Below, piece by piece: positions 1-25,068 of a DNA stretch of 25,068 nt. Source of the DNA: a virus; the IMG/VR virus record IMGVR_UViG_3300025435_000084, positions 1 through 25,068 of that record, one strand, 5' to 3'. Every line of letters begins with the position of its first letter. Positions within the stretch are counted from its first letter, which is position 1. The position numbers were made by a program, and so were the translations under genes. The notes below the pieces were generated by a model. It did no database searches. It was not told where the DNA came from and saw only the letters and a list, made by a program, of their open reading frames with translations.

Positions 1-3000
1 CCAGGCGAAGGAGAATATGGATCAGTACCAACTTTACCCAAAAGACACTCTGATAGCCTCTATGGAAAATATGGAGAAGGTCAAACCCCCAATGATGCCA
101 TTCTAGGGCTTCATATGGATGGGAAAGCTCTTGATATACAAACTCCCGATCAACTTTGGGATTACATTAAAAGCCAATCTGACACAACGCTACGGGCTGA
201 AAAAGAAGAAGCTCAACAAGATTCTGAACTTAAAAAGCTAGAAGATGCTCAAAAAGAAATAGAGGCCGCTAAAGACAATCCAGATAAACTAGCCGAAATT
301 GAAGCACAAGTATTGCGAGATCATTTTGAATACTTGCGTAGGCGTAATCGTGGAGAAGGTGCATATACCGAGCTTCCTCGCATTATTTATGATGCCGCAA
401 TCAAGGTTGGAGATTCCATAAGGAAAGGAGCAACTTCTTTTAAGGATTGGTCTAACAAAATGATCTCCAGACTTGGAGAAGGTGTTCGTGACTTCCTCAA
501 AGACATCTGGGCTGGCGTTCGGGACAACTGGAACAAAGATATTGGCGGTGGATCTGATACAGGCGGTCGTTCCCGTGAACAGGCACAGCGTGAAGCTGAA
601 GCTAAATACGGCCCTAAAGCTCCTACTGATAGAGAATCATTTGCAAAGAAAGCCGCTGATGCTCTCCTAAAGGGTCGTGGTACTCCTATTACAGAAGAGG
701 AGATGCAGAACATCCTGTCTAGGAAGTTCCCTGGCATTACCTCCCGTGAGGCATCTGATCTTTATGCTAGTGCTACAGGAACGCCAAAGCCTCCTGCACC
801 TTATGCTGGTATTGCCGCCGAACCATCTGGAGAGAAAATTTCTCTGAAGAATGAAAATGCAGATGCAGAAACAAAAGCTCTTGGTCTTCCAGAACTTACT
901 CAACAAGACGAGCAAGAGATGAATGCCGCAATGGATCGTGCTAAAGCCACAAGTGCAGAAGATCCAATGGCAGGGCAAAGATTGGCAGAATCTCTTATTG
1001 CAGATCCTAGAAGGTCATTAACAGGAGATGAATCGGCTTTGCTTTTGAAGCATAAGACTGATTTATTTAATAGCCTTAACAAAATGGCAGAAGGGCTTAC
1101 AGAAGGAAGTCCAGAACAGAGATTTGAAAAGGGTCTTGCTTATGATAATGCAAGCAAGGCTTACCATGATCTTCTTCAAGCAATCAAAGACAGAGGAAGT
1201 GAGTGGGGAAGAGAAGGCCGCTGGAGGCAAGCATTGCTTCACCAAGATTACACATTTGCTACTCAAGAAAGGCTTGCTACTGCCGCAAAGAGAAAGCCCC
1301 TTACTTCAAATGAGAAAACAAAACTTGCTGAAGAAACAAAGCGTCTTACTGAAATTGATAAAGAGATAGCAGAGACACAAGAAAAAGAGGCAAACAAACA
1401 AGAGCAGAAAAAAGCAGAACAAGAAATTAAGAATGCTCCTCAAGTTGATCCTTATATTCAAAGCATAGTTGATCGTGTTAGAAAAAATGTTTCTAGTGCC
1501 GCTGATGCCGCAAGGGAGAGAATTAGACAAAGGAGAGCAGAGGGAAGGCTTTTTACTGGAGTAGATCCAACTGATATTGCTGATTATGCAATTATCGGTG
1601 CTGATCATCTTCTTGAAGGAACAACAAGATTTGCTGATTGGTCTTCAAAAATGATTGGTGAATTTGGAGAAAAGATTCGTCCTTATTTAGATGATATATT
1701 TAAGAAATCCAAAGAGTTTAATGAGAAACAGATTGATAAAGAATCCAAGGGTTCTAAATCAGTAAATAAGCGTGTTTCCAAAGCCGCATCTCCAGAAGAA
1801 AGGATTCGCAAAGGTCAAGAAACAAGGGCTAGAAATAGGCTTGAGCAATTAAAACAGGAAGAAGAACGCCAAAAGAAAGGTGATTTTAGCAAGCCTGTAA
1901 AGAAAGCTCCTATTGAGCCATCAGAGGAAACCAAAAGACTCCGCATTGAAGCTCAAAAGATCAAAGATCGCATTGACAAGCGTAGGGCTGATTTTGAAAA
2001 GGCAAATAGACCAGCAGTTAATAAAGTTCTTGATGCAATATCTGCATTGAATCGTTTTAACATTTTGAGTCATGTTACGGTTCTTGAGCATTTGGCTGGA
2101 GCCGCTGTCGAGAATATTGTTACACGACCAGTATCTTCTACTCTTTCTCAACTTTTCCGTTTCAACAAAACACTTGATGCCATTAGAAGGAAAGCTGTTT
2201 ACGAAGGTGGATTAAGTGCAAAGTCAGAACTCAAGGGAGTTTTTGGAATAGCGACATCAGCAAAAGATATTTGGAATAAGTTGCTAAAAGGCAAAACAGA
2301 TATTGATTGGCTATATGGAGGAAAAAATAACTATGCTCCTTCTTTTGTTAGGGCTGTTGAGAATATTCACGGAGCAATGAAAGAGCCTGTTCGACAAGGT
2401 ATCTTCTCTCGTTCTCTACAATTACGCATAGATGCCGCTGAAAAAATGGGGCTAGATCCTACTAATGATGAAGTTCTTTATCAAATCCTAGCATCTGAAG
2501 CTGTTAATGATGCAAACATGGATATTTTCATGGGAGATAATTTTATCACCCGTGGAATTAGAGGTCTTATGCGAGGATTTGAAGCAAACAAACAATCGCC
2601 TCGCCTCGGAAAGTTTGTATCTGCGTTAATGGATATTGCCATGCCAGTTATGAATGTTCCGACAAATATCGCTATTAGGAAAATGCGATTAGCTGGTGGA
2701 TTAATTGGTGAATTTCCTACTCGATTAGCAATTGCCGCAAAAGAAGGCAAGCTGGCAAACGGAGCAGAGGCTTTAACTACTCAAGAGGCAGAGCAAATAA
2801 TGAGAGCATTCAAATATGGGACTCTTGGTATTGCAATTGGTGCTTATGCTTGGACTCACTCAAATCAATTTGGTGGCATCATAAACAATGTTGGCCCTAA
2901 TGCCCCAGAAAACAAGGATCTCAAAAAGGGAGAAATGGAACTTGGGGGAATAAAGATTGCTCGTCCTTTAGGTCACGGCCCTGTTGCCACATATATGAAC

Positions 3001-3459
3001 ATGGTTGCTGATGCACGAAGGATGTATGATAAATCTGTTCGCAATAACCCAAACAGCAAGTGGAGTAGTCTTTCAGAGCCAGCTTTCTTTAGTATGTTTG
3101 TATCTGGACTAGGAAGTATGCCTCCAGCACAAGCCGCTACAAGATTCTTCTCCCCATTCACAACTGCTGGTCAGAAAGTTGGTCAAACTCTCCGTGATAT
3201 GCTTATACCTGGAGCAGTTCAAGATGTAGCCGCAAAGATGGATACAAAGTCACAACCAAAGGATTTCATTGACATGATTGAGGCAGAGCCAATCAAGCGT
3301 TCTCCAAAAACATTAGAACAGGAAATCATGAAGGGAATACCTGGATTAAGACAAAAATTGCCAATGTCAAAACCAAGGGGTAGCCATGCAGGATCATCAT
3401 CTTCAAATATACTTGGAGGATCTGTCGGTGGTCGTAGAAAGTCTGGTGACATACTATAA
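1..3459 (+). CDS. Very large polyvalent virion-type protein (5' end outside window)
   Basis: The frame is open from base 1, so the gene begins upstream; the first in-window ATG is at 115 and is probably internal. At least 1152 residues are visible. Numbered from that ATG, the protein is Lys/Glu/Ala-rich with probable coiled coils (about 25-70, 400-440, 590-650). It contains a duplicated module: FKDWSNKM near residue 109 and FADWSSKM near 506, each followed by a similar G-E-x-x-R/K-x-x-L-x-D-I stretch. The C-terminal 450 residues hold hydrophobic segments and end in a Gly/Ser-rich tail. This architecture is typical of giant phage proteins carried in virions or ejected with DNA, but no enzymatic motif is recognised. 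All Ala-Ala pairs are GCC-GCN. Function is inferred from size, composition and position only. Confidence 0.75.
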   Translation, partial: PGEGEYGSVPTLPKRHSDSLYGKYGEGQTPNDAILGLHMDGKALDIQTPDQLWDYIKSQSDTTLRAEKEEAQQDSELKKLEDAQKEIEAAKDNPDKLAEIEAQVLRDHFEYLRRRNRGEGAYTELPRIIYDAAIKVGDSIRKGATSFKDWSNKMISRLGEGVRDFLKDIWAGVRDNWNKDIGGGSDTGGRSREQAQREAEAKYGPKAPTDRESFAKKAADALLKGRGTPITEEEMQNILSRKFPGITSREASDLYASATGTPKPPAPYAGIAAEPSGEKISLKNENADAETKALGLPELTQQDEQEMNAAMDRAKATSAEDPMAGQRLAESLIADPRRSLTGDESALLLKHKTDLFNSLNKMAEGLTEGSPEQRFEKGLAYDNASKAYHDLLQAIKDRGSEWGREGRWRQALLHQDYTFATQERLATAAKRKPLTSNEKTKLAEETKRLTEIDKEIAETQEKEANKQEQKKAEQEIKNAPQVDPYIQSIVDRVRKNVSSAADAARERIRQRRAEGRLFTGVDPTDIADYAIIGADHLLEGTTRFADWSSKMIGEFGEKIRPYLDDIFKKSKEFNEKQIDKESKGSKSVNKRVSKAASPEERIRKGQETRARNRLEQLKQEEERQKKGDFSKPVKKAPIEPSEETKRLRIEAQKIKDRIDKRRADFEKANRPAVNKVLDAISALNRFNILSHVTVLEHLAGAAVENIVTRPVSSTLSQLFRFNKTLDAIRRKAVYEGGLSAKSELKGVFGIATSAKDIWNKLLKGKTDIDWLYGGKNNYAPSFVRAVENIHGAMKEPVRQGIFSRSLQLRIDAAEKMGLDPTNDEVLYQILASEAVNDANMDIFMGDNFITRGIRGLMRGFEANKQSPRLGKFVSALMDIAMPVMNVPTNIAIRKMRLAGGLIGEFPTRLAIAAKEGKLANGAEALTTQEAEQIMRAFKYGTLGIAIGAYAWTHSNQFGGIINNVGPNAPENKDLKKGEMELGGIKIARPLGHGPVATYMNMVADARRMYDKSVRNNPNSKWSSLSEPAFFSMFVSGLGSMPPAQAATRFFSPFTTAGQKVGQTLRDMLIPGAVQDVAAKMDTKSQPKDFIDMIEAEPIKRSPKTLEQEIMKGIPGLRQKLPMSKPRGSHAGSSSSNILGGSVGGRRKSGDIL

Positions 3460-4532: not shown

Positions 4533-4695
4533 TGATGCTTGGCTTGCAATCCTTTCGGGGCTTGCGGCAAGTGGCGAGCTATCTCCAGAGACGCTTGGTA
4601 CAAAGGGTGGAGTTGATCGGGTTAAGGTTCTCGCTACTCATGCCGCTGGTCTAGCCAAAGTCTTTCATGCCGAGTTCGTGAAAGCCAATGCCTAG
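4510..4695 (+). CDS. Small hypothetical protein (61 aa)
   Basis: I chose the ATG at 4510. The frame is open further upstream, but that part is a Ser/Lys/Gln-rich shadow of the preceding gene. The 61-residue product has a compact Ala/Leu-rich helical pattern (AWLAILSGLAASGELS, then THAAGLAKVFHAEFV). Its stop overlaps the start of the glycosyltransferase by 8 nt, indicating translational coupling. Function unknown. Confidence 0.65.
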   Translation: MEKKSNPNDAWLAILSGLAASGELSPETLGTKGGVDRVKVLATHAAGLAKVFHAEFVKANA

Positions 4696-6211
4696 TGTTC
4701 ATGTCAATACAGGACGCTATGGCGACATCATAGCCTTCCTTCCTGTTCTTCTAAATGAGTATAAAGAAACTGGCATAAATCCTCGTCTGGTAATTGCCAA
4801 AGAGTATGCGGACATTCTTGATGGTGTTAGCTATGTTGATCCTCTTGTATGGGATGGAGCGTTTGAGGATGTATCTGGATCAATCCAATTTGCGAAACAA
4901 TTCACAGATGATGTCAAAACCTCTCAAGTGGTTGGCATCTCCGATGTAATCGTTAGCCAAGTCTATGGCAATAGCCATGCCCCCAAGATTGTCTGCGATT
5001 CTTTCCTCAAGGATGCTTGGAAGCTGGCAGATAAGCTAGATCTCTGGCCTAGTCAGCCGCCCTTGGTATTTGATAGGAGGGATAAGAAAAGAGAACAAAC
5101 TCTTACCAAGGGTCTTGGTAAAGATAAGCCTTGGCTTGTGGTAAGCACAGGAGGGGTGTCATCTCCTTTCCCTTACAGCGATCTGCTATGGGAAATCCTT
5201 AATCATTCCCTGCCAGAGTTTCATATCGTTGACCTAGCCAAGATAAAGGCTGAACGGATGTATGATCTGCTTGGAATCATGGATCATTCTAATACAGCGG
5301 CAATGATATTGACTGATAGTGGCCCCCTACACCTCTCATATGCCTCTACAAAGCCTGTTCATGCTCTAGTGGCAGATTCTCCTAACCTATGGCATGGCAC
5401 AGCATGGCGGCCATCCTATGCGTCCTATACACGCTACAAGAATTTCCCAAGAGAAATAACTAGGATCTTGGATCTGATCCGTAACCCTCCCGTAAAGCCA
5501 AAGTATCCCAATATCATCCATGTTTATCAGCGTACTCCTTGGGAAAGTGGCGAGGAGAAGCGTAGGAATGCGGTAGCAAAGAAGACATGGGATAAGATCG
5601 GTTGGGTTGATCTAGGGTTGGATGACTCCTGTTTTGTAAGAAACTCATCCAATGTCATACCTAATGAGAAGAAGAATATCCCTATGATTAAGGATATGAT
5701 CCGAATGGCTTGTATTGGTAGAGAGGATCGTGATGTGATCGTGCTAACCAATACGGATACTTGTGTTGCATCTAACATAGTTGAGCGGCTTGTTGGCAAT
5801 ATGCCAGCGTATGCATATCGCTATGACTTCAATAAAATAGATGGGCCTATTCCAGATGATGAGATTATCTATGGAACCAAGTATGCAGGGTGTGATCTCT
5901 TTGCTTTTAGAGTTGGTTACTGGCGTAGAAACCATCACCTATTTCCAGACATGGTTCTTGGGAGGGAATCATGGGATAGGATCATGCGAGAGTTGTTTAA
6001 GTTATCCCAAGGGAGAGAGCTTTATAGTGCAATCTACCATGAGAAACATGATTCCTTTTGGGAGAGTGCTGTAAATATCAATAGTGATCCCTCTAATTTG
6101 AGGAACAGAATGCTTGCTAGGAAATGGCTCCAAGAGCGGAATATGCCACTAGAGGAGTTGGAATCAAGGAACTACGAGGGAAAGTTTAAGAAGATAACAA
6201 AGAAGCGTTAA
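4688..6211 (+). CDS. Two-domain glycosyltransferase (GT9-like plus GT-A-like)
   Basis: The 507-residue protein has an N-terminal half resembling GT9/ADP-heptose transferase-type GT-B enzymes. GRYGDIIAFLPVL at 9-21 matches the N-terminal GD-x(4)-P loop, and TDSGPLHLSYASTKPVHALV at 209-228 matches the nucleotide-sugar motif of that family. The C-terminal half (about 275-507) begins a new alpha/beta domain with DVIVLTNTDTCV at 349-360, whose TDT could be the metal-binding D-x-D-like motif of a GT-A fold. The likely role is transferring sugar to a virion protein, DNA or host surface glycan; substrate unknown. It ends in a 4-bp overlap with the convergent methyltransferase gene (shared TTAA). Confidence 0.7.
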   Translation: MPSVHVNTGRYGDIIAFLPVLLNEYKETGINPRLVIAKEYADILDGVSYVDPLVWDGAFEDVSGSIQFAKQFTDDVKTSQVVGISDVIVSQVYGNSHAPKIVCDSFLKDAWKLADKLDLWPSQPPLVFDRRDKKREQTLTKGLGKDKPWLVVSTGGVSSPFPYSDLLWEILNHSLPEFHIVDLAKIKAERMYDLLGIMDHSNTAAMILTDSGPLHLSYASTKPVHALVADSPNLWHGTAWRPSYASYTRYKNFPREITRILDLIRNPPVKPKYPNIIHVYQRTPWESGEEKRRNAVAKKTWDKIGWVDLGLDDSCFVRNSSNVIPNEKKNIPMIKDMIRMACIGREDRDVIVLTNTDTCVASNIVERLVGNMPAYAYRYDFNKIDGPIPDDEIIYGTKYAGCDLFAFRVGYWRRNHHLFPDMVLGRESWDRIMRELFKLSQGRELYSAIYHEKHDSFWESAVNINSDPSNLRNRMLARKWLQERNMPLEELESRNYEGKFKKITKKR

Positions 6212-6798
6212 AAACATCCCCATTGTTTAGCCATTGCTTTGGCTATCCCTGGATAAGTTTTTGATCGCTCTTTCCATCTTGTGGGTGATGGCCCTAATTT
6301 GTTTTGACCGCTTGCTGTCTGATTTTCCCATCTGCCAGATTTTGGCAATTCAATAATATCGGTTGAAAGAAGGGGCGGCATATTCTTTAACCACAAACAG
6401 GTTTTCTTGCTTTCTGGATGTCCATGCTCCCAAGGGTGAATAATGCAATCTGGTTTTCTTATTCTAGTAGAGATTACGCCCACGGGATTTTCTATTGCTA
6501 TTCTATGGATTGGAGCATCCATTAACATTTTCACAAATTGAAGAGCATTTTCTGTAAGTTGTGGATCTCTTAATCCTCGTTTTGTCCAATGCATTCCAGA
6601 TACACAAAGATATGTGCAGGGTGGAAAAGCAATCATCATATCCCATCCATCATTTATGATGTCTTTTATGTCGCCTTGGTAATGTTTGCCTGGAACATCT
6701 GTTGGCAATAAATCACAAGATGTTGCGTCCCATCCTTGATCCTTGAATGCATCTCTTACACGACCAGAGTATTCACAAGCTACTAAAAGTCTCTTCAT
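6208..6798 (-). CDS. Phage DNA cytosine (C5)-methyltransferase-like protein
   Basis: The 196-residue protein matches a compact methyltransferase family common in phages. It has an N-terminal SAM-binding-like LLVACEYSGRVRDAF, the catalytic FPPCTYL (the Pro-Cys of motif IV in C5-cytosine methyltransferases) near residues 58-64, and IENPVGVISTRIRKP near 100-115, equivalent to the ENV motif VI. It ends KERSKTYPGIAKAMAKQWG, conserved in these phage proteins. A good SD, AAGGAG, precedes the ATG. It would methylate cytosine in a short DNA site; target unknown. The region depleted in GCWGC and CCGG makes a link to restriction evasion tempting, but this is inference. Confidence 0.8.
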   Translation of the reverse strand: MKRLLVACEYSGRVRDAFKDQGWDATSCDLLPTDVPGKHYQGDIKDIINDGWDMMIAFPPCTYLCVSGMHWTKRGLRDPQLTENALQFVKMLMDAPIHRIAIENPVGVISTRIRKPDCIIHPWEHGHPESKKTCLWLKNMPPLLSTDIIELPKSGRWENQTASGQNKLGPSPTRWKERSKTYPGIAKAMAKQWGCF

Positions 6799-15101: not shown

Positions 15102-15114
15102 GTCGTCGGCGTTG

Positions 15115-15351: not shown

Positions 15352-15374
15352 GTCGGCGGCGGCGGTGTTAATGG

Positions 15375-15551: not shown

Positions 15552-15567
15552 GGTTCGGCGTTGGCGG

Positions 15568-15711: not shown

Positions 15712-15722
15712 TTATTTCTCCT

Positions 15723-15947: not shown

Positions 15948-15990
15948 GTTGTTTAAATGGTTGTTGTGGTTGTTTTGGTTGTTCATAGTT

Positions 15991-16182: not shown

Positions 16183-16186
16183 ATTT

Positions 16187-16330: not shown

Positions 16331-16332
16331 AG

Positions 16333-16521
16333 TTATTGCTCCTCAAATCCGTCGAACCATACACGCCCGATTCCTACCTCTTGGGCCGTTTCATCTGAAC
16401 AAGTGCGAGAAGATGTCTCGGGATTTTGGCAATGCTCTTTTGCTTCTGCAAGCGTCAGCCCCGTGGCAATCACTTCACGATCTCCGTCAAAGAATCCTCT
16501 GATGATTTTATATGTGCTCAT
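16333..16521 (-). CDS. Small conserved phage protein (62 aa)
   Basis: The ATG at 16521 has AAGGAG 8-9 nt upstream. The product begins MSTYKIIRGFFDGDREVIAT and contains GLTLAEAKEHCQNPETSSRT and VWFDGFEE. A G-L-T-L-x-E-A-x-x-H-C-x-D/N-P-x-T-S-S-x-T pattern ending in W-F-D-G-x-E is very widespread in phage genomes as a small protein of unknown function. Confidence 0.8.
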   Translation of the reverse strand: MSTYKIIRGFFDGDREVIATGLTLAEAKEHCQNPETSSRTCSDETAQEVGIGRVWFDGFEEQ

Positions 16522-16540
16522 ATTTTTTTCTCCTTTTTGA

Positions 16541-16933
16541 TTAAATGTCTTCTTCTGTAAATCCTGCAATGCTCATTGCATCCCAGAACATAGCTTCACA
16601 AGCTCCGTTATCTTTGGAATCACTACAAGGTTTTCCAGTCTTTGCGCTAATCTCATTAGCAACGGCTCCGTTGCCATTAAGCAGTTCTCTTGTATTGGTG
16701 AGTGTAGAAAGGAAACAAGGGCCAAGGAAGTAATCTTCGGAGAGTTTGCTTCCCATGATTGCTTCATGTGCTTTGGCGTAGCGAATGAGAGAATCCAATA
16801 TGACGATCAACGGCTCTGTGCCATTCATTCCCAAAGAATGTGTCTTGTGTGCATTTGTGCGCTCTGGAACCTTTGCGAATGCTTCGCAAGTCTCGGGCTG
16901 ATATTCGTAGTTGTGTGCGGTATATGTTTTCAT
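16541..16933 (-). CDS. Hypothetical protein (130 aa)
   Basis: A 130-residue protein with an AAGGAG ribosome site. Features include MNGTEPLIVILDSLIRYAKA, an aromatic loop (YFLGPCFLS) and a Cys-containing C-terminal helix (CEAMFWDAMSIAGFTEEDI). Probably an alpha-helical cytoplasmic protein. Unrecognised. Confidence 0.65.
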   Translation of the reverse strand: MKTYTAHNYEYQPETCEAFAKVPERTNAHKTHSLGMNGTEPLIVILDSLIRYAKAHEAIMGSKLSEDYFLGPCFLSTLTNTRELLNGNGAVANEISAKTGKPCSDSKDNGACEAMFWDAMSIAGFTEEDI

Positions 16934-16966
16934 TCTGTGTGCTCCTTTTTTGGGTTGGGTTGGGGT

Positions 16967-17179
16967 TTACATGGATTTTGCAAGTAACTCGTGGGCTTTA
17001 ATTGTCCAGAAGTTGCCAGCGATTTTTTTGGTGAGTTGTGGGGAACAGTTCTTAATATGCTTCGCCCATTGTCCGACTCCCATAAAGGTCGCAGGATTTC
17101 CCTTCCATACTCGGAGATGTCTTTCCGTCATTTTGAAGTATTCACGGGCTAAGAGTTCTGCTTTTTCGGTGTTGTTCAT
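16967..17179 (-). CDS. Hypothetical protein, first gene of the leftward operon
   Basis: A 70-residue basic helical protein (NNTEKAELLAREYFKMTERH and KKIAGNFWTIKAHELLAKSM). It is the promoter-proximal gene of the block running left from 17179. Its leader is C/A-only apart from two G (ACCAACCAACCAACACCAAC...). Unrecognised. Confidence 0.55.
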   Translation of the reverse strand: MNNTEKAELLAREYFKMTERHLRVWKGNPATFMGVGQWAKHIKNCSPQLTKKIAGNFWTIKAHELLAKSM

Positions 17180-17541
17180 GGCGTGCGTGGTGTTGGTGTT
17201 GGTTGGTTGGTGTCGTTATGACAAGGGAGACTCTATGCAATTCTTTCAACCTTTGCAACATCTTTTTACAAGAAAGTGAAAGATTCTTTCATCCAGTATC
17301 CATGCACCTCCGAGCGTAACAGACTGCAAGACATCATCAATCTTCTATCACTTGCAAGACATAGCAAGAGAAAGAAAACATCCAAGAATGATCAGAATAG
17401 AATTGACAGAATCACCCTTCACCTGCTTAAAATTACTTATCCGACAAGGATCTCGATCCCTCTACTTCTTTCCCTAGGCCATCCAGTAATTTATCCGACC
17501 AGTTGACAAGGTGGATCTCCCTAGGTAAAAACCATCTTCCC
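17180..17541 (+). other. Divergent intergenic region (about 360 bp)
   Basis: This gap separates the leftward early block from the rightward small terminase. It holds the C/A-rich leader of the leftward operon and a good + promoter at its right end. A second TTGACA at 17403 has only a TAAAAT 19 nt away. An open frame at 17276-17506 (+) lacks protein-like composition. The leftward promoter must lie here too, but no convincing pair of boxes was found for it. Confidence 0.6.
17503..17531 (+). promoter_or_regulatory. Promoter for the small terminase, nearly leaderless
   Basis: A perfect -35 TTGACA (17503-17508) is followed by a 17-nt spacer and TAAAAA (17526-17531). The terminase ATG at 17542 is 10 nt after the -10 box, so the mRNA would have only about 0-5 nt of leader. 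No SD fits in that space. Confidence 0.65.
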
Positions 17542-18093
17542 ATGAGCAAGCCATTAAATACCAGACAACGCAAGTTCGTTGAGTTCTACGCACTAAAAGG
17601 TTTATCCATCGCCGAATCTGTTAGAAGAGCAGGATACAGCATCGCTTCGGGTAAAATAGAAGATGCAAGCTCTTATGGATGCAAACTTCTGAGACAGGAC
17701 AGGGTTAAAGCCTATCTTGCCAAGTTAAAGGAGAAGCAGTTCAAAGAAGATGCTCTCTCATTCGCTGAAAAGCGGGCTTTCCTGGCGCGAGCCGTCCGAG
17801 CTGATGCGAGCAAAGCTGATCCTGATTTAGTGCAGGAAGTGAGAGAGGAAGTCGATCAGATGGGGAATGTTAAGCGTGTAGTTAAGTTGGTTAATAAGTT
17901 GGACGCTTTACGAGAGGATAATGCCATGTCAGGTGATCGGTTCTCGGATAGGCAACCGCAAGCGAGTAATCCTTTCTTGTTCCTTGTGACGGCTTTCAAG
18001 GAGCAAGTCGATGCCTTACAGCAGGTCGAGCGAGTAGCGTTGCCAGCACCAGCACCATCGACGATCAGCATAGATGCCGAGCTGGTCGAGTAA
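17542..18093 (+). CDS. terS: Terminase small subunit
   Basis: From the ATG at 17542 the protein has 183 residues. The N-terminus PLNTRQRKFVEFYALKGLSI followed by AESVRRAGYS is the helix-turn-helix of the Terminase_2 type small subunits that recognise phage DNA for packaging. A CKLLRQDRVKAYLAKLKEKQ helix and a charged central oligomerisation region follow, then a Pro/Ala-rich acidic tail. It would work with the large terminase encoded 6 kb away on the opposite strand. Confidence 0.85.
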   Translation: MSKPLNTRQRKFVEFYALKGLSIAESVRRAGYSIASGKIEDASSYGCKLLRQDRVKAYLAKLKEKQFKEDALSFAEKRAFLARAVRADASKADPDLVQEVREEVDQMGNVKRVVKLVNKLDALREDNAMSGDRFSDRQPQASNPFLFLVTAFKEQVDALQQVERVALPAPAPSTISIDAELVE

Positions 18094-18163
18094 GCCAGCC
18101 TTGCCAAGCTCCAGGGAAAGGCTAGTCCCTTCATGGTAGGATCTCCCACAAGGAATCTCTTAC

Positions 18164-18175
18164 GGGTGGCCACCC
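18164..18175. repeat. Perfect 12-bp palindrome GGGTGGCCACCC
   Basis: GGGTGG/CCACCC is a perfect dyad in the 217-bp gap between the small terminase and the next gene, followed by a further CTCCCACC. It could be a protein-binding site (packaging or operator); with no spacer it cannot form a stable RNA hairpin. The rest of this gap holds a TTGACT at 18274 without a clear -10 box. Confidence 0.4.
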
Positions 18176-18310
18176 TCCCACCATCACATTTTATGGCGAT
18201 GCGTATATGCGACATGGGCCAACCAAAAAAAATCCAGTATGGGAACTTTCCCTATTAAAAGATCATTTTAGCCTTGACTGTATGATGGTTGATGGGATAG
18301 GAATGTATTA

Positions 18311-18523
18311 ATGACGATGAGATACCCAGAGAGTGACTTTACTAGGCCGAGTATTATGTTGTTGAGGTCGCTTGTGCATGAGTTGGGGGAGGGGGTGAGT
18401 AAGGAGCCTGGTGGGTATGGAGGGTTGAAGATGGAGAGGAAGAGGTTGGGAGATATTTTGAAAGAACATATAGATGATCCTAGACTTTCTGATTGGGATA
18501 GGGATATGATTAAGGGACTATGA
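18311..18523 (+). CDS. Small hypothetical protein (70 aa), G/T-rich codon use
   Basis: A 70-residue protein with SIMLLRSLVHELGEGVSKEP and a charged C-terminal helix ending DWDRDMIKGL. Codons favour G in the third position (GAG, AAG, AGG, TTG, GTG) and C is scarce on the coding strand, unlike the first gene of the window. It joins the next gene through an ATGA overlap. Unrecognised. Confidence 0.65.
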   Translation: MTMRYPESDFTRPSIMLLRSLVHELGEGVSKEPGGYGGLKMERKRLGDILKEHIDDPRLSDWDRDMIKGL

Positions 18524-18882
18524 GTGAAGGAGAATTTTTGATTACATTGTTGAATGCGGCTACGATTGGTCATGTGTTGCATTTGCAGAGTCGGAGTTAT
18601 GCAGAGCATAAGGCGTTGAATAAGTTTTATAGTGAGTTGCCAGACTTGGTTGATAGTGTGATTGAGGCATGGCAGGGAAGGCATCAAGAGTTGGTGCAGT
18701 ATCCAGATCAGATGGTTGAGGTGAGTGAGCATAAGGATTCTTTGGAGTATTTGATGTTCTTGAAGATACTTGTTGAGGAGGATCGTTATGTGTTGGGAGA
18801 GGAGAGTGAGATTCAAAACTTGGTGGATAATGTTGCGGCATTGATTGATTCTACTATTTACAAGCTGACGTTCCTCAAGTAA
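18520..18882 (+). CDS. Four-helix phage protein, DUF5856-like
   Basis: The 120-residue protein is all-helical. FLITLLNAATIGHVLHLQSR, SYAEHKALNKFYSELPDLVD and SVIEAWQGR match a phage family (recalled as DUF5856) with the pattern H-x-x-H-x-x-x-x-S-x-x-x-H-x-A-L-x-x-F-Y ... D-x-x-x-E-x-x-Q-G. The family looks like a ferritin/Dps-type helical bundle, and the His/Glu positions could bind metal, but its function is unknown. Leu is almost always TTG and Glu GAG, as in the preceding gene. Confidence 0.65.
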   Translation: MSEGEFLITLLNAATIGHVLHLQSRSYAEHKALNKFYSELPDLVDSVIEAWQGRHQELVQYPDQMVEVSEHKDSLEYLMFLKILVEEDRYVLGEESEIQNLVDNVAALIDSTIYKLTFLK

Positions 18883-18989
18883 GATTTTCTTAATAGAACC
18901 AATTAAGCCTCTCAAAGATGCTCAAACAAATTGGTCATTATTTGCCCCACTCCCTCTCCGTGATTGAAAGGTTGCGTGAAGGTCAAGGC

Positions 18990-19100
18990 AAGGCAATCCC
19001 GTAGGCCATAACTGATGGACGCATCAGAACGGGTAAATTTACATAATTATACCCCTCACGCCTCTGCCTGTGAGCAAGCGCACCAGAGGGGTTCTTATTT
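18990..19100 (+). ncRNA. Candidate structured RNA with competing helices
   Basis: A two-part hairpin (CCCGT 18998-19002 with ACGGG 19029-19033, enclosing CTGATG-GACG-CATCAG at 19012-19027) is followed by a terminator. Within the terminator region CTCAC/GTGAG, CCTCTG/CAGAGG and ACCCCTC/GAGGGGT overlap and cannot all form. This resembles a small RNA or attenuator. No clear promoter was found, so it may instead be the 3' end of the upstream mRNA. Confidence 0.35.
19051..19100 (+). terminator. Rho-independent terminator after the small-terminase operon
   Basis: A stem of ACCCCTC (19051-19057) and GAGGGGT (19086-19092) is followed by TCTTATTT. The T run is on the + side, so it would end transcripts from the 17.5-18.9 kb operon or a local small RNA. 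Confidence 0.65.
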
Positions 19101-19107
19101 ATAAAGA

Positions 19108-19134
19108 ACTACTAAAACGTTTACAATTAGTAGT
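19108..19134. repeat. 27-nt dyad, copy 1 (inverted copy at 23867-23893)
   Basis: ACTACTAA and TTAGTAGT flank an 11-nt centre. Its reverse complement matches the element at 23867-23893 at 22 of 27 positions, including an uninterrupted CTACTAATTGTAAA. It could be an operator for a dimeric repressor or a replication/packaging site. Confidence 0.5.
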
Positions 19135-19311
19135 TGGATTAACCTCATGGGGGATTATCCCAGCATCCGCTAATCAAACTATGCTACACTTCCAGACTGC
19201 ACGATAAACAAGACGAGTGTAGTAGAACGAAGATATGTCTGTAAACTGCTACATCTGTCCTTTTCAGAAGGATAAGTTATTGAAAAAGCGTCCTTTTATA
19301 AAGCCTTTGAT

Positions 19312-19385
19312 TGGCTACGGGACATGGGATCGAACCATGACTAGGAGAGTCAAAGTCTCCTGTGCTACCTTTACACCATCCCGTA
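19312..19385 (-). tRNA. tRNA-Gln (anticodon UUG), CCA encoded
   Basis: Read on the minus strand it folds as a full cloverleaf: acceptor TACGGGA/TCCCGTA, D arm GTGT-loop-GCAC containing GG, anticodon stem GGAGA/TCTCC with loop CTTTGAC (anticodon TTG), T arm CATGG/CCATG with loop TTCGATC, discriminator G and encoded CCA. It would read CAA. Its 5' end directly abuts the stop codon of the small gene upstream, so it is probably processed from that mRNA. Confidence 0.93.
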
Positions 19386-19607
19386 TTAATGTTTGCGAGG
19401 ACGGCCCCTGTCCCTTGGGACATTGACCCTTTCCCGCCATGCTACACGCCCGTAAATCGTTTTGATTGCTATCTCCTCTGGCATATCAAGGATCTGGGAT
19501 TTAAGGCGTTTCTGGTGTTCTTGATCTAGTTTACCAACCAAGACTCCATACTCTTCTCCCTGCCATGCTTTGTGCAAGGCTTCTTTTAGAATTTCTTGTT
19601 GATTCAT
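19386..19607 (-). CDS. Small protein with AT-hook-like C-terminus
   Basis: A 73-residue protein: NQQEILKEALHKAWQGEEYG then a charged helical middle and a C-terminal RDRGRPRKH. RGRP flanked by Arg/Lys is the core of an AT-hook, which binds the minor groove of AT-rich DNA. The gene stops exactly where the tRNA begins, and no SD precedes its ATG. Function beyond possible DNA binding is unknown. Confidence 0.6.
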   Translation of the reverse strand: MNQQEILKEALHKAWQGEEYGVLVGKLDQEHQKRLKSQILDMPEEIAIKTIYGRVAWRERVNVPRDRGRPRKH

Positions 19608-19625
19608 TTATTTTACAAAAAAGTG

Positions 19626-19653
19626 TTGACTGGCTGAAAAAAATCGCTAGAAG
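19626..19653 (+). promoter_or_regulatory. Candidate promoter for the small zinc-finger gene
   Basis: TTGACT (19626-19631), a 16-nt spacer and TAGAAG (19648-19653) lie 9 nt before the ATG at 19663. The geometry resembles the small-terminase and deiminase promoters. However AAGGGG at 19651-19656 could equally be a Shine-Dalgarno site, so this one is ambiguous. Confidence 0.4.
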
Positions 19654-19662
19654 GGGTGATGT

Positions 19663-19863
19663 ATGAATAACCTATTCAATACAACTACTACTCTTGAGAA
19701 AGAGTGCAATGAGTGCGGTGGAACGGGCCGTGATTGGTATGATGACGGCATGGGTGAACCATGCTGGAAATGCCAGGGAACGGGTCACATTGCCACTAAT
19801 GAAGGGAAAGCTATCCTTCAGCTTATTGCCCATAATCAAGGTAGCCTGTTGCAATTTGCTTAA
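19663..19863 (+). CDS. Small DnaJ-type zinc-finger protein (66 aa)
   Basis: A 66-residue protein with CNECGGTGRDWYDDGMGEPC followed by WKCQGTGHI: two C-x2-C-x-G-x-G units, one half of the DnaJ central zinc finger. Phages often encode such short proteins. The stop shares the bases TTAA with the stop of the convergent metallopeptidase-like gene. Confidence 0.75.
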   Translation: MNNLFNTTTTLEKECNECGGTGRDWYDDGMGEPCWKCQGTGHIATNEGKAILQLIAHNQGSLLQFA

Positions 19864-20231
19864 CGCTTCTTTTTGAGGGCTATTAAAAAGCCTTCAACTA
19901 GATACCCGATGAGGTAAGCCAACGCCTCGTCACAGGATTCTTTTTCTTTTACACCACATCTTTCTAGGATATGGGTAGCCACATGGACACATTCGTGAGT
20001 TAGGTTTGCGATCCACTCTGGTGTTAGACTCCATTTGGAAAGAAATATAATCGGAGGGCATGAGCATACTGTACAACCATCTGCTGTATCTAATGGCTCA
20101 ACAAGTTTTGTAGATCCTGTAGGAAATTTTGTCTCAAGCCATTTCTCTGCCTGTTCTCTATTTACAGGCCAAACAATCCAACAGCCCGATCTCCAGACTT
20201 TAGCCTCAAGATAAAACTCGTTGATCTTCAC
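19860..20231 (-). CDS. Putative HExxH metallopeptidase-like protein
   Basis: The 123-residue protein has LTHECVHVATHIL at 77-89, containing the zinc-binding HECVH, and DEALAYLIGYLV at 101-112, whose Glu102 could be the third ligand. Small phage proteins with H-E-x-x-H and E-A-x-A-Y-L are common and usually of unknown substrate. CTVCSCPP near 53-60 adds possible metal ligands. It is the last gene of the operon that starts at 22829. Confidence 0.7.
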   Translation of the reverse strand: MKINEFYLEAKVWRSGCWIVWPVNREQAEKWLETKFPTGSTKLVEPLDTADGCTVCSCPPIIFLSKWSLTPEWIANLTHECVHVATHILERCGVKEKESCDEALAYLIGYLVEGFLIALKKKR

Positions 20232-20500
20232 AGTAAGAAGTAATGAGGTTTTTCTATCCTTCTGCCATTTTCATAAATTATGAAATCTTGTTTCTCACAA
20301 ATGTTGTTGGCAATTGCCTTTCTTAACCAAGAAAGTGTTTGGCTTTTACCAAGCTCAAGCATCTTTTCTATATCTTCCCTAGTTTTCCATCCTTCTGGGA
20401 TTTCCATTTGATTATCTATAAGTGCGTTTTTCCAACGCATTGCTTCATCTACAGAAGCAATAAGATCAGCTTCGGATGGGTCGAGTTTCTTTTGGCTCAT
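20228..20500 (-). CDS. Winged-helix-like small protein (90 aa)
   Basis: A 90-residue protein. GWKTREDIEKMLELGKSQTL and SWLRKAIANNICEKQ look like the helices of a winged helix-turn-helix, followed by FIIYENGRRIEKPHYFLL as a wing. It probably binds DNA, possibly as a regulator. It overlaps the phosphoesterase gene by 35 nt and the metallopeptidase-like gene by 4 nt. Confidence 0.6.
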   Translation of the reverse strand: MSQKKLDPSEADLIASVDEAMRWKNALIDNQMEIPEGWKTREDIEKMLELGKSQTLSWLRKAIANNICEKQDFIIYENGRRIEKPHYFLL

Positions 20501-21269
20501 ACTGGATTAGTTTGGTTGCTGGTAGTTCGCCTTCTTCACATCCACGCCAATCGAGGATGCCGATGCCAGGGCGACAAATGGCATCTCCTACAACTTTATG
20601 TGCATATCTGGTTAGCAACTGCCAAGCAGGAGTAACCATAAATATGCCAGCACCATCATTAAAGATTCCTCCCGTGTGTCGATGGCCTCGTAGATAAATC
20701 CGTGGAACCCTATGACCAACACGGGAGTAATTCTGTCGGGCATTGCCCATAGTAATGCTCATTGCTCCAGCTTCAAGATATGCTCTAGAACTGGTAGGCA
20801 TATGGTGAGCCATATCTATAAGCGTACCATTGATTTCAATGAGGGCTTTGTCGCCACACCATTTTCCGTTAATCTTGGTAGCAATATATTCTTCCCAATT
20901 CTTAACATGGCACTCTGTGCCAGCCGTTAAGTAAGTTACAGCAGAGGCACTAGAAAGGGGCTTAATAGCCTCTATAGCGGCATTTGAATGATCTAGGCAG
21001 TCTTGTGCAACAACTTCTTTTGTTCCATGATGAATGCCCTCTATCAAATCACCATTGAGGAACAGAGCAAATGGATCTTTTCCAAAATGTTTTATGCCTT
21101 TCTCAACTGCATCTTGCCAACATTGCCAAAGCCATTGCTGATGGAGATTTTTTCCTAACCCAATTTTGTTTCCTGTCTTTGTTTCAAATCCATCGGGCCA
21201 CAAACCAACTGATGATCCGCAATGCAAATCGGAAACAACAATTGCTCCGACAATAGGTTTATTAGTCAT
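20466..21269 (-). CDS. Calcineurin-like metallophosphoesterase
   Basis: The 267-residue protein carries the family's metal-binding motifs: SDLHCG (D14, H16), NGDLIEG (D74), GTECH at 117-121 in the place of GNH(D/E), an H at 155-156, and RGHRH at 195-198 for G-H-x-H. It would hydrolyse phosphodiesters or phosphomonoesters; phage members are variously nucleases or nucleotide phosphatases. The GTECH variant lacks the usual Asn. It overlaps its upstream neighbour by 8 nt. Confidence 0.85.
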   Translation of the reverse strand: MTNKPIVGAIVVSDLHCGSSVGLWPDGFETKTGNKIGLGKNLHQQWLWQCWQDAVEKGIKHFGKDPFALFLNGDLIEGIHHGTKEVVAQDCLDHSNAAIEAIKPLSSASAVTYLTAGTECHVKNWEEYIATKINGKWCGDKALIEINGTLIDMAHHMPTSSRAYLEAGAMSITMGNARQNYSRVGHRVPRIYLRGHRHTGGIFNDGAGIFMVTPAWQLLTRYAHKVVGDAICRPGIGILDWRGCEEGELPATKLIQYEPKETRPIRS

Positions 21270-21666
21270 TGGATTGGTTTGGGAGACTTTGAGGAGGTCG
21301 ATCCGAAACCAAGTTCTCTAATAGAGTTGAAGCATCTCGTAAAGAGACTTCTTCATCTCTCATCATTTTTGCAAGAAGATGACATAGCTTTACTCGCTCG
21401 GTCAAATGATGGAGATAGCTGATTAGATCAAGCTGTTCATCTTTAAGATTCTGTGCATACCACCCTGCACCAGCAGTCCAGAATTGAGTCTTATGCTCTT
21501 CACTTCCCTTGATATATTTATCAAATCCAGCAGAAGTTGCTTTAGACCAAATATCAAAAGCATCTTGTTCTGGAGTCATATCATTTAGCTCTAGGCTTTC
21601 GTTTTGTTTTTGCTCTGGGTTTTTGAATAGACCCATAACTAACTCTAGCAGGTCGTAGATTCGCAT
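21262..21666 (-). CDS. Hypothetical helical protein (134 aa)
   Basis: A 134-residue protein with a polar linker, then DIWSKATSAGFDKYIKGSEE and LKDEQLDLISYLHHLTER. The second segment (D-E-x-x-D-L-I-x-Y-L) resembles the metal-binding helix of MazG-like pyrophosphohydrolases or helical phage proteins, but not enough to assign. A leader resembling CAGCAACCAC precedes the ATG. The start could also be the ATG at residue 11. Confidence 0.6.
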   Translation of the reverse strand: MRIYDLLELVMGLFKNPEQKQNESLELNDMTPEQDAFDIWSKATSAGFDKYIKGSEEHKTQFWTAGAGWYAQNLKDEQLDLISYLHHLTERVKLCHLLAKMMRDEEVSLRDASTLLENLVSDRPPQSLPNQSND

Positions 21667-21699
21667 ATGGTTTTGCTGATGTTGTGGTTGCTATTTTGT

Positions 21700-21870
21700 T
21701 CATAGGCTGTTGAGAAATCGTTGCCATAATCTTATGGGTTTGATACAGCCCGCTACATTGCATATGTGGCAAGGATGTACATGGCAAGCACTTAATTCTC
21801 TACCACATTCTGGGCATAACCTATTCAACCAACAGATAAATCCAACGAATATTCTCCAATACCTTTTCAT
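21700..21870 (-). CDS. Small Cys/His-rich protein (56 aa)
   Basis: The ATG at 21870 overlaps the upstream stop as ATGA. The product begins MKRYWRIFVGFICWLNRLCP, a hydrophobic possibly membrane-inserting start, then has CPECGRELSACHVHPCHICN, a dense zinc-ligand cluster. It may be a membrane-anchored zinc-ribbon protein. Unrecognised. Confidence 0.6.
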   Translation of the reverse strand: MKRYWRIFVGFICWLNRLCPECGRELSACHVHPCHICNVAGCIKPIRLWQRFLNSL

Positions 21871-22829
21871 CAGAAAGTGATATGCATCACTTGGCATGAA
21901 CAATCTGCACCATTCTTATCTGCTTCATCAATATCGGCAAAGATTACAGAGTTGTTAAACTTGTCCATCGTCGTGAGTATCCACTCCATACTCTTGCGAT
22001 AGTTTTCAAACTCTGGTTGGAACATTCCAGAAATAACGATGTTTTTGTCAGGTATTCTTATCAAATTGGTAGCTCCTGTTGCTTCCATCTCTTTAGGAAC
22101 AACAATTATATTGGCTAATTTCTCAAGCCGCTTGAAGGATTCTGAATCAATACCAGAGCGGCAAACCAAGAAGTTATCTTTATCAATGACATGGATTACA
22201 CAATCCAGATGATACAAATCATCACTCACCATCTTCATGGGGATAATCTCTACACCAGCTTTCTTTGAGATCCATTCCTGTGCCTTCCAATCAGAGAATT
22301 TTCCGTGACCGCCAAAGTAGATATTGTCTTTCCAATGCTTTGTCTCTGCTTCTCCCTCCCATGAATGTGGAGGTTGGAGAACAGTATATCCCATCTTCTC
22401 AAAGAACCTACGACCTGGCTCCTCCTCAATCTGCCTTCCATCAGCACTCATCTTGGCGATGAAGATAAAAGGATCTACAGACAATCCAAGGTTGGCGACA
22501 AAATGCTGATCCTGTGCTCCAGGTGTAGGAGGAAGCTCAATTACCTTAACTCCAAGAGCAGTAATTAGTCTCTTGATTCTTGTGTACTGACGCATGGCCC
22601 TTTCAGTATCAATCTTCTGTCCCTTCATAAACTTGTTGTTTGGGATAGCCGTCGACAAGTATTTAGGAGGACACATCAAAAAGCTAGGTTTCCGTTTATA
22701 CTGACCGCCTCCATATGGAGTAGAATCAGAACTTCCTAAGAGTTTAGAAACAGAAGAGTCTACTTTTCCATGTATCACAGAGGGAATTATAGAACCACCT
22801 TTGAAGTCTTGGGGAGAAAACCTAGCCAT
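21870..22829 (-). CDS. Arginine deiminase / DDAH / amidinotransferase superfamily enzyme
   Basis: From the ATG at 22829 the protein has 319 residues. It shows the order of motifs of the guanidino-group-modifying superfamily: FLMCPPKYL at 50-58, PGAQDQHFVAN at 103-113, WEGEAE at 157-162 and DNIYFGGHGKFSD at 168-180, YHLDCVIHV at 206-214 (H207 and D209, as HLD in deiminases), GATNLIRIP at 252-260, and GADCSC at 307-312 with C310 the likely nucleophile. It would hydrolyse or transfer a guanidino group of arginine or a derivative; the exact substrate cannot be read. A TTG at 22868 is an unlikely alternative start because it lies in the -35 box. This is a surprising metabolic gene for a phage. Confidence 0.8.
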   Translation of the reverse strand: MARFSPQDFKGGSIIPSVIHGKVDSSVSKLLGSSDSTPYGGGQYKRKPSFLMCPPKYLSTAIPNNKFMKGQKIDTERAMRQYTRIKRLITALGVKVIELPPTPGAQDQHFVANLGLSVDPFIFIAKMSADGRQIEEEPGRRFFEKMGYTVLQPPHSWEGEAETKHWKDNIYFGGHGKFSDWKAQEWISKKAGVEIIPMKMVSDDLYHLDCVIHVIDKDNFLVCRSGIDSESFKRLEKLANIIVVPKEMEATGATNLIRIPDKNIVISGMFQPEFENYRKSMEWILTTMDKFNNSVIFADIDEADKNGADCSCQVMHITF

Positions 22830-22839
22830 AAGTGTTAAA

Positions 22840-22868
22840 AGTATGACGCTGTTTAAGAGTTGCGTCAA
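22840..22868 (-). promoter_or_regulatory. Promoter of the deiminase operon, nearly leaderless
   Basis: On the minus strand TTGACG (22863-22868), 17 nt, and CATACT (22840-22845). The ATG at 22829 is 10 nt after the -10 box, the same distance as at the small terminase. No SD is present between them. Confidence 0.7.
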
Positions 22869-22879
22869 TTCTAACTTGC

Positions 22880-22925
22880 TGTTATAAAAAACAAAGCTGG
22901 TGAGAATGGCGTTCTCAACCAGCTT
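22880..22925 (-). terminator. Rho-independent terminator (minus direction)
   Basis: AAGCTGGTGAGAA (22894-22906) pairs with TTCTC plus ACCAGCTT (22912-22925) with one bulged A, a 13-bp stem with a 5-nt loop. On the minus strand it is followed by TGTTTTTTATA. It would stop leftward readthrough just upstream of the deiminase promoter. Confidence 0.75.
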
Positions 22926-22948
22926 TTAACCTCAACCATAATGTGTCT

Positions 22949-23440
22949 ATGAATGAAGCTGATGTAAATGTATTCCATTGTGACAATGGATCGCAAGCTC
23001 AATGCTTGCACAAAAAATTGTTGATCAAGTTTTGGAAATATTTCCTTGAAGATAAATCTGTCAAAGGGCCAAACAAAATCAAAAGGGAAGCATTGAGGGG
23101 CAATTTCAATGGTGGTCTAAAAAGCAAAGAGGAAAGACTAAATGTTTTAATTGACTATGCAAAAATCGTTATTGGATGGAAAACTGATCCATCGAAAAAA
23201 CGAACACAATTTAATCAGATTAAAAAAACACTTCACAGAGTAGAGTTAAAAATAAACATCAAATGTTTTGTTTGCCTTGAACCAGCACATTGCCGACATC
23301 ACATAATACAACTCCAAAACGGGGGATTGAACCAGAAGAAAAATGTCGTCAGCCTTTGTAACGGATGCCATGCCGAAATACATCCATGGCTAAAAACTCT
23401 AACAAACCCCCCTACCCCCCAGAAAAGATTTGCTAGATAA
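22949..23440 (+). CDS. HNH endonuclease with zinc ribbon
   Basis: From the ATG at 22949 (a GTG at 22943 is also in frame) the protein has 163 residues. CFVC at 106-109, CRHHIIQLQNGG with H117-H118, N132 in KKNVVSLC, and CNGCHAEIH at 137-145 form a classic HNH/McrA-type nuclease with two zinc-binding Cys pairs. The N-terminal 100 residues are basic and may contact DNA. It stands alone between two terminators. Likely a homing or restriction-like endonuclease; the target is unknown. Confidence 0.88.
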   Translation: MNEADVNVFHCDNGSQAQCLHKKLLIKFWKYFLEDKSVKGPNKIKREALRGNFNGGLKSKEERLNVLIDYAKIVIGWKTDPSKKRTQFNQIKKTLHRVELKINIKCFVCLEPAHCRHHIIQLQNGGLNQKKNVVSLCNGCHAEIHPWLKTLTNPPTPQKRFAR

Positions 23441-23577
23441 AAATCACTACCCTCTGCTTTTGCTGAAGGCAGTACATTTTTACCCAACCATCGGGTAAGG
23501 AGTTTTGATTCTCCAAAGCCGTTGTTGTTGGGTCATGTGGTACGAATTCACACCCACCCTCACTTGCTGTAACGGAC
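23441..23577 (+). other. Hairpin-rich 3' region of the HNH transcript
   Basis: This spacer holds TACCC-aaccatc-GGGTA (23481-23497), GGAG-ttttgatt-CTCC (23499-23514), and TGTG/CACA with flanking TGGG/CCCA near 23529-23555. Parts resemble a tRNA (a TACGAAT loop), but no cloverleaf can be closed. No gene is seen. Confidence 0.4.
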
Positions 23578-23626
23578 AAGCCCCGCCGAGTGGTGAAGCA
23601 CTACAGCGGGGCTTTTCTTTTTGTTT
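23578..23626 (+). terminator. Strong rho-independent terminator after the HNH gene
   Basis: AAGCCCCGC (23578-23586) pairs with GCGGGGCTT (23606-23614), with an inner AGTG/CACT stem, followed by TTCTTTTTGTTTT. The T run is on the + side. Confidence 0.88.
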
Positions 23627-23677
23627 TAGGAAAGTGTTACCAGAATGCTTCACCATTCAGATGCGGTGAATATGTTA

Positions 23678-23706
23678 TTGACTAATCCATGCGTCAACAA
23701 TAAATT
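23678..23706 (+). promoter_or_regulatory. Promoter for the candidate RNA at 23.7 kb
   Basis: TTGACT (23678-23683), 17 nt, TAAATT (23701-23706). Expected transcription start is around 23712-23714, which coincides with the first base of a stem (GGAGCT). No start codon follows at the spacing seen for the coding promoters. Confidence 0.5.
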
Positions 23707-23712
23707 TTCTTT

Positions 23713-23866
23713 GGAGCTTAAGGGATACCGCAGCTCCTATACCCTCGACCGCCTTCTCCCCTTGAGTCGCAGAAACAAGGAGGATCGGCACTTGGGTTTC
23801 TTCAAAGGTTCCTCGCCCCTGAAAAATCTCCAATGGGGATTTCCTGCGAGATAGGGGGCGAGGTCA
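23713..23866 (+). ncRNA. Candidate structured noncoding RNA
   Basis: Directly after the promoter the sequence forms GGAGCT (23713-23718) / AGCTCC (23732-23737). Then there are two alternative central helices (CCTTG/CAAGG, or AGAAAC/GTTTCT). A strong 3' stem follows, CCTCGCCCC (23811-23819) / GGGGCGAGG (23855-23863), enclosing AAATCTCC-aat-GGGGATTT (23824-23842). No T run follows, so the 3' end is unclear. The only GCWGC site in the window (23730-23734) overlaps the 5' stem. An overlapping frame (23645-23854, 69 aa) lacks protein-like features. It fits no RNA family I recognise. Confidence 0.45.
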
Positions 23867-23910: not shown

Positions 23911-25068
23911 CTAAAATCCATCTTCATCACAACTGCTTCCACCATATCCCCAATCATCTTGATCCTCTACTTCTTTTCCAACTCCATTTTTAGAATACAC
24001 AAGTTTTTCTTCCCAATCCCTAATCTCTAGGATGTCCAAGGATTCTTGCTCTTCTTCAAAAGTAAATTCCAATCCTGCCTTGCGTAGCATTTCAACGGCA
24101 TAGGTCAAAGAATCAGCCAAATCGGGTGATTTCTTGATGCGTTGCTTCATATCCAGTTTTTTCTCCACAGCAACTTTTCTGCCCTTGTGGAAATAAAGCC
24201 TACTGCAAAGTTCGTTTACCAATGCGGTATGTTTTTCCACATTAATGCCAAGCAAACTTTGCGTTGACATAGCCGTATGCACCTGGAACCAAGACTCCGT
24301 AACACGCCGATCATACGCTTCCTTGGCAGTACGCTTATCCAAGCTACTGATTTTCCTCTCCGTAGGCATACCCATAGAGGAAATAGGGTGAATAAACATA
24401 GCTTCTGGATGGAATTTGCCCCATTCAATGATTATTGCCCGTAGCATCTTGCCGCCATCACCAGAAATATCCAATCCAAAGTCCCTTGGGTGGACTCCAT
24501 ACTCTACGCAATCCTTTACCAATTGCATTGCAATGGATTCTTCAAAGACATCACCCACAGAGGAGTTATATTCTCTTGTGCCAAGGTAGAATCCAACCCT
24601 ACGACCAGTATCATTTGGCCCATATCGGCAAAAAGTAGCCGCACATCTATCTCCTCCAGCCGTAAATGCAGGGTCAAATCCACAAACTACCTTTGTTCTG
24701 TCACTCCAAGTAGGTTCCCAAGCTATATCACAGGCTTGGATGAACTGTTTTGAGAAGATGGTTAGTTCTACAGAGGAATCGGGCCACCAACCATAGACAT
24801 TTCGCCAATATTCTAGGGCATTTTTATTGCCATAGCATCGTTTTAGGGTATTTGCTTCGCCTTGGATGGTCAAAAACCTATCAAATGGGGGAACTTCAGC
24901 GTTTGGTAGTTTGAAATTAGGACTATCTTCTCCCGAAAGGTGCAAAGCAACCCCTGTTCTAGTAGTCCATTTATGGGTATAGCGGTTTACTGCATCCCAT
25001 TCCAAGGGATCGTCTGGCTGGCACAACTCTGTATGGGGATTATTGGCAGTATTTGATGGGTTTGCCAT
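23911..25068 (-). CDS. terL: Terminase large subunit, C-terminal part (5' end outside window)
   Basis: The visible 385 residues are cut by the right edge; the Met at the edge is very probably internal because the N-terminal ATPase (Walker A and B) is absent and full proteins are usually 500-650 residues. What remains is the region after the ATPase plus the RNase H-like nuclease: GFDPAFTAGGDR (D132), GLDISGDGG (D200) and SPDLADSLTYAVEML (D319) supply the metal-binding acidic residues. It translocates DNA into the prohead and cuts concatemers together with the small subunit. Confidence 0.9.
   Translation of the reverse strand: MANPSNTANNPHTELCQPDDPLEWDAVNRYTHKWTTRTGVALHLSGEDSPNFKLPNAEVPPFDRFLTIQGEANTLKRCYGNKNALEYWRNVYGWWPDSSVELTIFSKQFIQACDIAWEPTWSDRTKVVCGFDPAFTAGGDRCAATFCRYGPNDTGRRVGFYLGTREYNSSVGDVFEESIAMQLVKDCVEYGVHPRDFGLDISGDGGKMLRAIIIEWGKFHPEAMFIHPISSMGMPTERKISSLDKRTAKEAYDRRVTESWFQVHTAMSTQSLLGINVEKHTALVNELCSRLYFHKGRKVAVEKKLDMKQRIKKSPDLADSLTYAVEMLRKAGLEFTFEEEQESLDILEIRDWEEKLVYSKNGVGKEVEDQDDWGYGGSSCDEDGF

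Follow-up and report, generated by a model that had tools for sequence, protein, structure and literature searches.

Elimination of restriction sites from phage genomes has been surveyed by Rusinov et al. 2018, who found it at the sites of orthodox Type II systems and more often in dsDNA phages that are not temperate; of the pairs of Type II site and genome, 7.1% showed elimination, and the comparison of lifestyles gave 7.5% of cases (PMC6286503). On the bacterial side, genomes of the Bacteroides fragilis group are depleted in lineage-specific methylation motifs, including TCAGG/CCTGA, which was termed Type IIS (PMC10333322). The DNA analysed here, hereafter the window, is a stretch of 25,068 bases that makes up the whole IMG/VR record IMGVR_UViG_3300025435_000084. 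It resembles the phages of the survey in that short, mostly palindromic Type II sites are nearly eliminated; no signs of lysogeny were seen among the scanned genes. Unlike what the survey figures (PMC6286503) would suggest, a single genome has almost lost eight words or more, an asymmetric word is also depleted, and relatives have different sets of missing words. This asymmetric word is TCAGG/CCTGA, as in the Bacteroides fragilis group (PMC10333322), but those are bacterial genomes, whereas here it is lost from a phage genome, and far more strongly (9 sites against 82 in a synonymous shuffle of the genes of the longer contig described below). Restriction-site avoidance is already known; what is unusual is how many words a single genome avoids and how fast the combinations turn over within a clade.

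The full-length window is matched at 99.96%, in reverse orientation, by positions 25414-50481 of G001, an IMG/VR contig of 55 kb whose two ends overlap each other imperfectly, and two related contigs, G003 and G004, have ends that are identical over 126 and 120 bases, respectively. Based on these overlapping and identical ends, the genomes are estimated to be about 51-54 kb long. A scan covering part of the gene set of the window and G001 identified packaging genes and a dsDNA terminase, with no integrase among the genes scanned, and the gene content includes the large and small terminase subunits, a RecB-like exonuclease, an Erf-like annealing protein, a GH108 endolysin, a short DNA methyltransferase and a tRNA-Gln. 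The source is an uncultured dsDNA phage from freshwater, probably non-temperate, and no close terminase was found among cultured phages.

The window contains one GCAGC and no GCTGC, exactly as counted by eye in a preliminary description of this DNA, whereas Markov models of order 0, 1, 2 and 3 predict 31, 47, 36 and 33 GCWGC sites, respectively. Permutation of synonymous codons across the G001 genes, which preserves all proteins and the codon usage, yields 89.6 +/- 5.7 GCWGC sites against the single one observed (z -15.6), and the deficit extends to each of the three reading frames, with 0, 0 and 1 sites observed for 70, 8.5 and 10.8 expected. Both calculations had been proposed as checks in the preliminary description, which had also named normal counts in the rest of the genome as an argument against avoidance; the whole 55 kb of G001 holds two GCWGC sites, and its 30.3 kb outside the window hold one of these, for about 68 expected from an order-2 Markov model. 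The sister word GCSGC is in excess, both in the window (77 sites observed, 21-54 expected from the Markov models) and in the G001 genes (113 observed, 34 from the synonymous shuffle). The near-absence of GCWGC is therefore confirmed as real and strong, and no such depletion was found in unrelated phage contigs (observed/expected 1.08; avoided in 1 of 39).

When 928 symmetric motifs were screened in the window, GCWGC ranked fourth, behind CTNAG (4 sites observed, at least 54 expected), CCGG (0 observed, 40 expected) and GCGC (4 observed, 45 expected), and was followed by ACGT, CGCG, ACNGT, RCATGY, CASTG and GGWCC. Across G001, observed/expected is below 0.1 for at least eight short words, z is below -12 for GCWGC and CTNAG alike in the synonymous shuffle, and 40 of the 512 strand-collapsed classes of 5-mers lie under the lowest value reached by any class in 200 synonymous shuffles, many of these 40 containing depleted short words such as CTNAG, CCGG and GCGC. 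The loss follows exact word borders: GCWGC is down and GCSGC up, CASTG is down and CAWTG up, and GGWCC is down while GGSCC is normal. These borders of loss are those of restriction enzymes. GATC, GANTC, CTAG and TCNGA have normal frequencies. As for ACNGT, sites in the frame fixed by Thr-Val are as numerous as expected (31 and 31), whereas the other two frames have 8 sites for 45 expected, a pattern that fits, as expected, with protein sequence outranking site loss.

Among the 5-mers of the G001 genes, the asymmetric CCTGA/TCAGG comes second in depletion. A Type III system acting on this word was considered and dropped, since the sites that are left show no orientation bias (6 in one orientation and 5 in the other). 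Depletion of CCTGA, together with its switching among relatives (see below), points to a restriction system that would be Type IIS-like. Another asymmetric word, CCCAG/CTGGG, is depleted in the relatives G004 (14 sites for 68 expected), G006, G012, G014 and G016, and is not among the words listed as depleted for G001. The features discussed here are listed in Table 1.

Table 1. Positions of features in the window, with remarks on their extent or use
Feature	Position	Strand	Remark
Near-absent words: GCWGC, CTNAG, CCGG, GCGC, CGCG, CASTG, GGWCC, RCATGY; strongly depleted words: ACGT, ACNGT, CCTGA	1..25068		whole window
Largest gene, 3' part	1..3459	+	full gene 2263 codons, G001 47023-53814 (-)
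507-codon gene, putative protein	4688..6211	+	marker of the methyltransferase slot in relatives
Short DNA methyltransferase (phrog_757)	6208..6798	-	slot with other methyltransferase families in relatives
Remaining CCTGA/TCAGG sites (n=6)	9373, 9684, 17821, 17929, 22048, 23818		all within 9373..23822
abiF RNA motif (Rfam RF03085)	18899..18935	+	
Second abiF RNA motif	19052..19092	+	weaker match
Amidinotransferase-like gene	21870..22868	-	
Sole GCWGC of the window (GCAGC)	23730..23734	+	
Terminase large subunit, C-terminal 385 codons	23911..25068	-	query for relatives, tree marker

Relatives of this terminase are encoded in 120 IMG/VR stretches, of which 80 were fetched, and a tree was made of 76 terminase segments. 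On this tree, GGWCC is avoided in all 72 classifiable loci and RCATGY in all 60, while GCWGC is avoided in 57 loci and normal in 15, with at least seven changes of state. Repeated switching between avoided and normal was also found for CTNAG (62 loci avoided, 5 normal), CCWGG (43 and 13), CCGG (44 and 13), GCGC (22 and 34), ACGT (15 and 43) and CCTGA (13 and 55), and such switches sometimes separate contigs that are as much as about 94% identical. GATC, GANTC, TCNGA and CTAG are avoided in no relative on the tree.

In aligned genes of the relative G008 and of G001, G008 has 30 GCWGC sites, all of which are absent from G001, in 17 cases through changes that leave the amino acids intact, and the same alignment keeps 34 of 75 GATC and 27 of 63 GANTC sites; of 51 CTNAG sites compared between G003 and G001, one is kept. 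At closer range, L025 and L019, with 93.7% identity over 8.9 kb, have in common not one of the 10 GCWGC sites or the 6 GCGC sites of L025, but 31 of 34 GATC and 32 of 34 CATG sites, and L052 and L046, at 94.6% identity, share one of 8 CCWGG sites. Most GCWGC sites of the L025 lineage look like new gains when up to 23 relatives are compared (for instance, GCTGCTGC against GCTGTTGC in nearly all others), which would make avoidance the earlier state there; in the L024-L027 lineage, GCWGC avoidance is thus probably the older state and has recently been relaxed.

Taken together, loss at the DNA level, the exact W/S border and the absence of the effect in relatives with the same codon usage make restriction-site avoidance by far the best explanation. 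The words are rare both against composition and against synonymous shuffles, the loss is confined to the exact word in all three pairs (GCWGC/GCSGC, CASTG/CAWTG and GGWCC/GGSCC), and codon usage or codon pairs are insufficient, given that all frames are hit and relatives of equal usage differ. We infer that restriction enzymes of the hosts are the selective agent and that, very probably, the genome has lost, under selection, the sites cut by several orthodox Type II systems and one Type IIS-like system of the bacteria it infects. Incoming phage DNA without the site would escape cutting on entry, and new sites born by mutation would be eliminated by selection, mostly with the protein unchanged, for example when GCC or GCG replaces GCA or GCT ahead of another Ala codon; sites would drift back once a lineage stops meeting the enzyme or gains other protection. 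The selecting Type II enzymes would have been met in different hosts or host populations, and because the missing words imply around ten restriction systems, a high number for one host species, several hosts or strains must be assumed.

The combinations of missing words probably record the cutting enzymes met by each lineage. Related phages that lose and regain sites in different combinations constitute a natural experiment, and the group permits estimates of the rate at which phages adapt to restriction systems; missing words could also reveal the restriction repertoire, perhaps even the identity, of hosts that were never cultured, and the quick relaxation of avoidance bears on the balance between site loss and other means of protection, such as self-methylation. 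A more far-reaching proposal, which we offer tentatively and consider rather doubtful as a whole, is that within one genus-like group of uncultured phages the missing-word set of each lineage records which restriction systems its own hosts carry, that these sets change within about 5% sequence divergence, and that site loss alternates with a protective methyltransferase in a dedicated slot.

This slot, beside the 507-codon gene, was examined in the relatives G003, G008, G006, G010, G011, G014 and G016, and across relatives it is occupied by four unrelated methyltransferase families (phrog_757, PF01555/phrog_67, phrog_24333 and phrog_8156). Methyltransferase genes lie at 43142-44080 of G003 and at 27325-27978 of G008. 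The variety in the slot speaks for a reading in which avoidance follows self-protection, sites being lost where no methyltransferase is present and kept where a protective one is encoded, in the slot or elsewhere. G003, with an N6/N4 enzyme in the slot, has near-normal CTNAG and GCGC, and G010, with a long C5 enzyme, has near-normal counts of GCWGC, CCGG and CCWGG; this link between the type of methyltransferase and the relaxed words is suggestive in a set where too few contigs span the slot, and the variety of families in the slot suggests that some lineages may protect sites by methylation instead of losing them. The G010 enzyme (12238-13893 of that contig, minus strand) has 551 codons, and a long additional segment separates its catalytic part from its C-terminal part. 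However, G011 has a C5 enzyme and avoids GCWGC nonetheless, most phrog_8156 proteins of the slot may not act on DNA, and neither similarity to solved structures nor NCBIfam gave a prediction of methyltransferase specificity. Restriction would, moreover, still be required as the driving force, and as the account of the whole pattern self-protection appears unlikely.

Mobile elements often carry restriction systems. It is conceivable that the enzymes selecting for site avoidance were encoded by plasmids or rival phages sharing the cell and not by chromosomal host systems, which would agree with the different avoidance sets of closely related phages from one type of habitat, but no scanned gene of the window or G001 resembles a sequence-specific Type II restriction enzyme, and we regard this origin as improbable.

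The preliminary description had attributed the scarcity of GCWGC to long exposure to a host system of the BbvI/TseI type. Restriction-site avoidance as such stands, whereas the single system and the long exposure across the clade do not. GCWGC is among the most depleted words, and its methylation is known in freshwater Chloroflexi, by M.AbaBS3I (PMC6329791), and in Microcystis panniformis (PMC4730716), indicating that this modification exists among freshwater bacteria, although nothing ties these organisms to this phage and no restriction system is listed along with the M.AbaBS3I gene. One system is insufficient for a genome in which at least nine further words are depleted, since it gives no account of CTNAG, CCGG, GCGC, GGWCC, CASTG, CCTGA and others, and exposure that was long in the whole clade is contradicted by the seven or more changes of GCWGC state and by the recent relaxation in one lineage; that a single long-acting GCWGC system accounts for the finding is thus very improbable. 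The symmetric TseI (GCWGC) and the asymmetric BbvI (GCAGC) are inseparable by sequence, because they recognise the same set of duplex sites. A search of bacterial genomes with terminase and exonuclease profiles returned no relatives; no host, and hence no GCWGC system or other matching restriction enzyme, was found. For the exonuclease, the best coverage came from an Akkermansia phage, at 28% identity, and host hints of this kind were not used, given that tRNA genes and distant phage matches point in different directions.

A bias of codon pairs, amino acids or base composition, or a general avoidance of palindromes, could in principle deplete words without any restriction enzyme, and some palindromes are indeed mildly low everywhere. 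In unrelated phage contigs, observed/expected is low for RCATGY (0.23), GGWCC (0.43), CASTG (0.56) and ACGT (0.58), which makes these four words weaker evidence for a clade-specific pressure, and part of their depletion may be general among phages. Against such a bias, sites are lost from all three frames, the deficits of GCWGC and CTNAG persist after synonymous shuffling, a non-palindromic word (CCTGA) is lost and GATC, GANTC, CTAG and TCNGA are not. As pointed out in the preliminary description, GCC opens each of the 14 Ala-Ala pairs of the largest gene, whose usual Ala codons are nevertheless GCA and GCT (98 of 122: 50 GCA, 48 GCT, 22 GCC and 2 GCG), and the rule extends to G001, where all 94 Ala-Ala pairs start with GCC or GCG and none with GCW. 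In G008 and G017, GCW comes first in 27 of 45 and 21 of 30 such pairs, respectively, while the GCW share of Ala codons is 73-78% in all three genomes alike. Since GCW before GC is not shunned by these relatives, whose Ala codon usage is the same, a codon-pair or compositional cause is ruled out for GCWGC by this within-clade comparison, and for the finding as a whole it is scarcely credible.

Restriction sites frequently carry cytosine methylation, and some GCWGC replacements are C-to-T (GCTGC against GTTGC or GCTGT, for example), but removal of sites by methyl-cytosine decay instead of cutting has next to no plausibility and was dropped, because sites are most often replaced through the central base (GCCGC, GCGGC), beyond the reach of deamination, with GCGGC as the GCWGC neighbour most in excess (164 observed, 41 expected) and several C-to-T differences being site gains in L025, not losses.

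Apart from the depleted words, one portion of the largest gene has a weak match to an antirestriction family that is DarB-like, with no Pfam match. The amidinotransferase-like gene belongs to the dimethylargininase/arginine dihydrolase family and is kept in many relatives, and its nearest homologues, in Campylobacter and Bacteroides phages, are distant (about 26% identity). Both abiF RNA motifs, scoring 43.2 bits (family cut-off 37) and 25.4 bits, lie in non-coding DNA that is flanked by a DUF5856 gene and the tRNA-Gln. An abiF RNA match of 35.5 bits is present in G003, with nothing recognisable 41-78 bases downstream, and no AbiF (Abi_2) protein was found in the window phage, G003 or G004. 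In C. difficile, the AbiF toxin is neutralised by an RNA with two abiF motifs (PMC12373285), and by analogy the phage abiF RNA could be a decoy against AbiF of the host.
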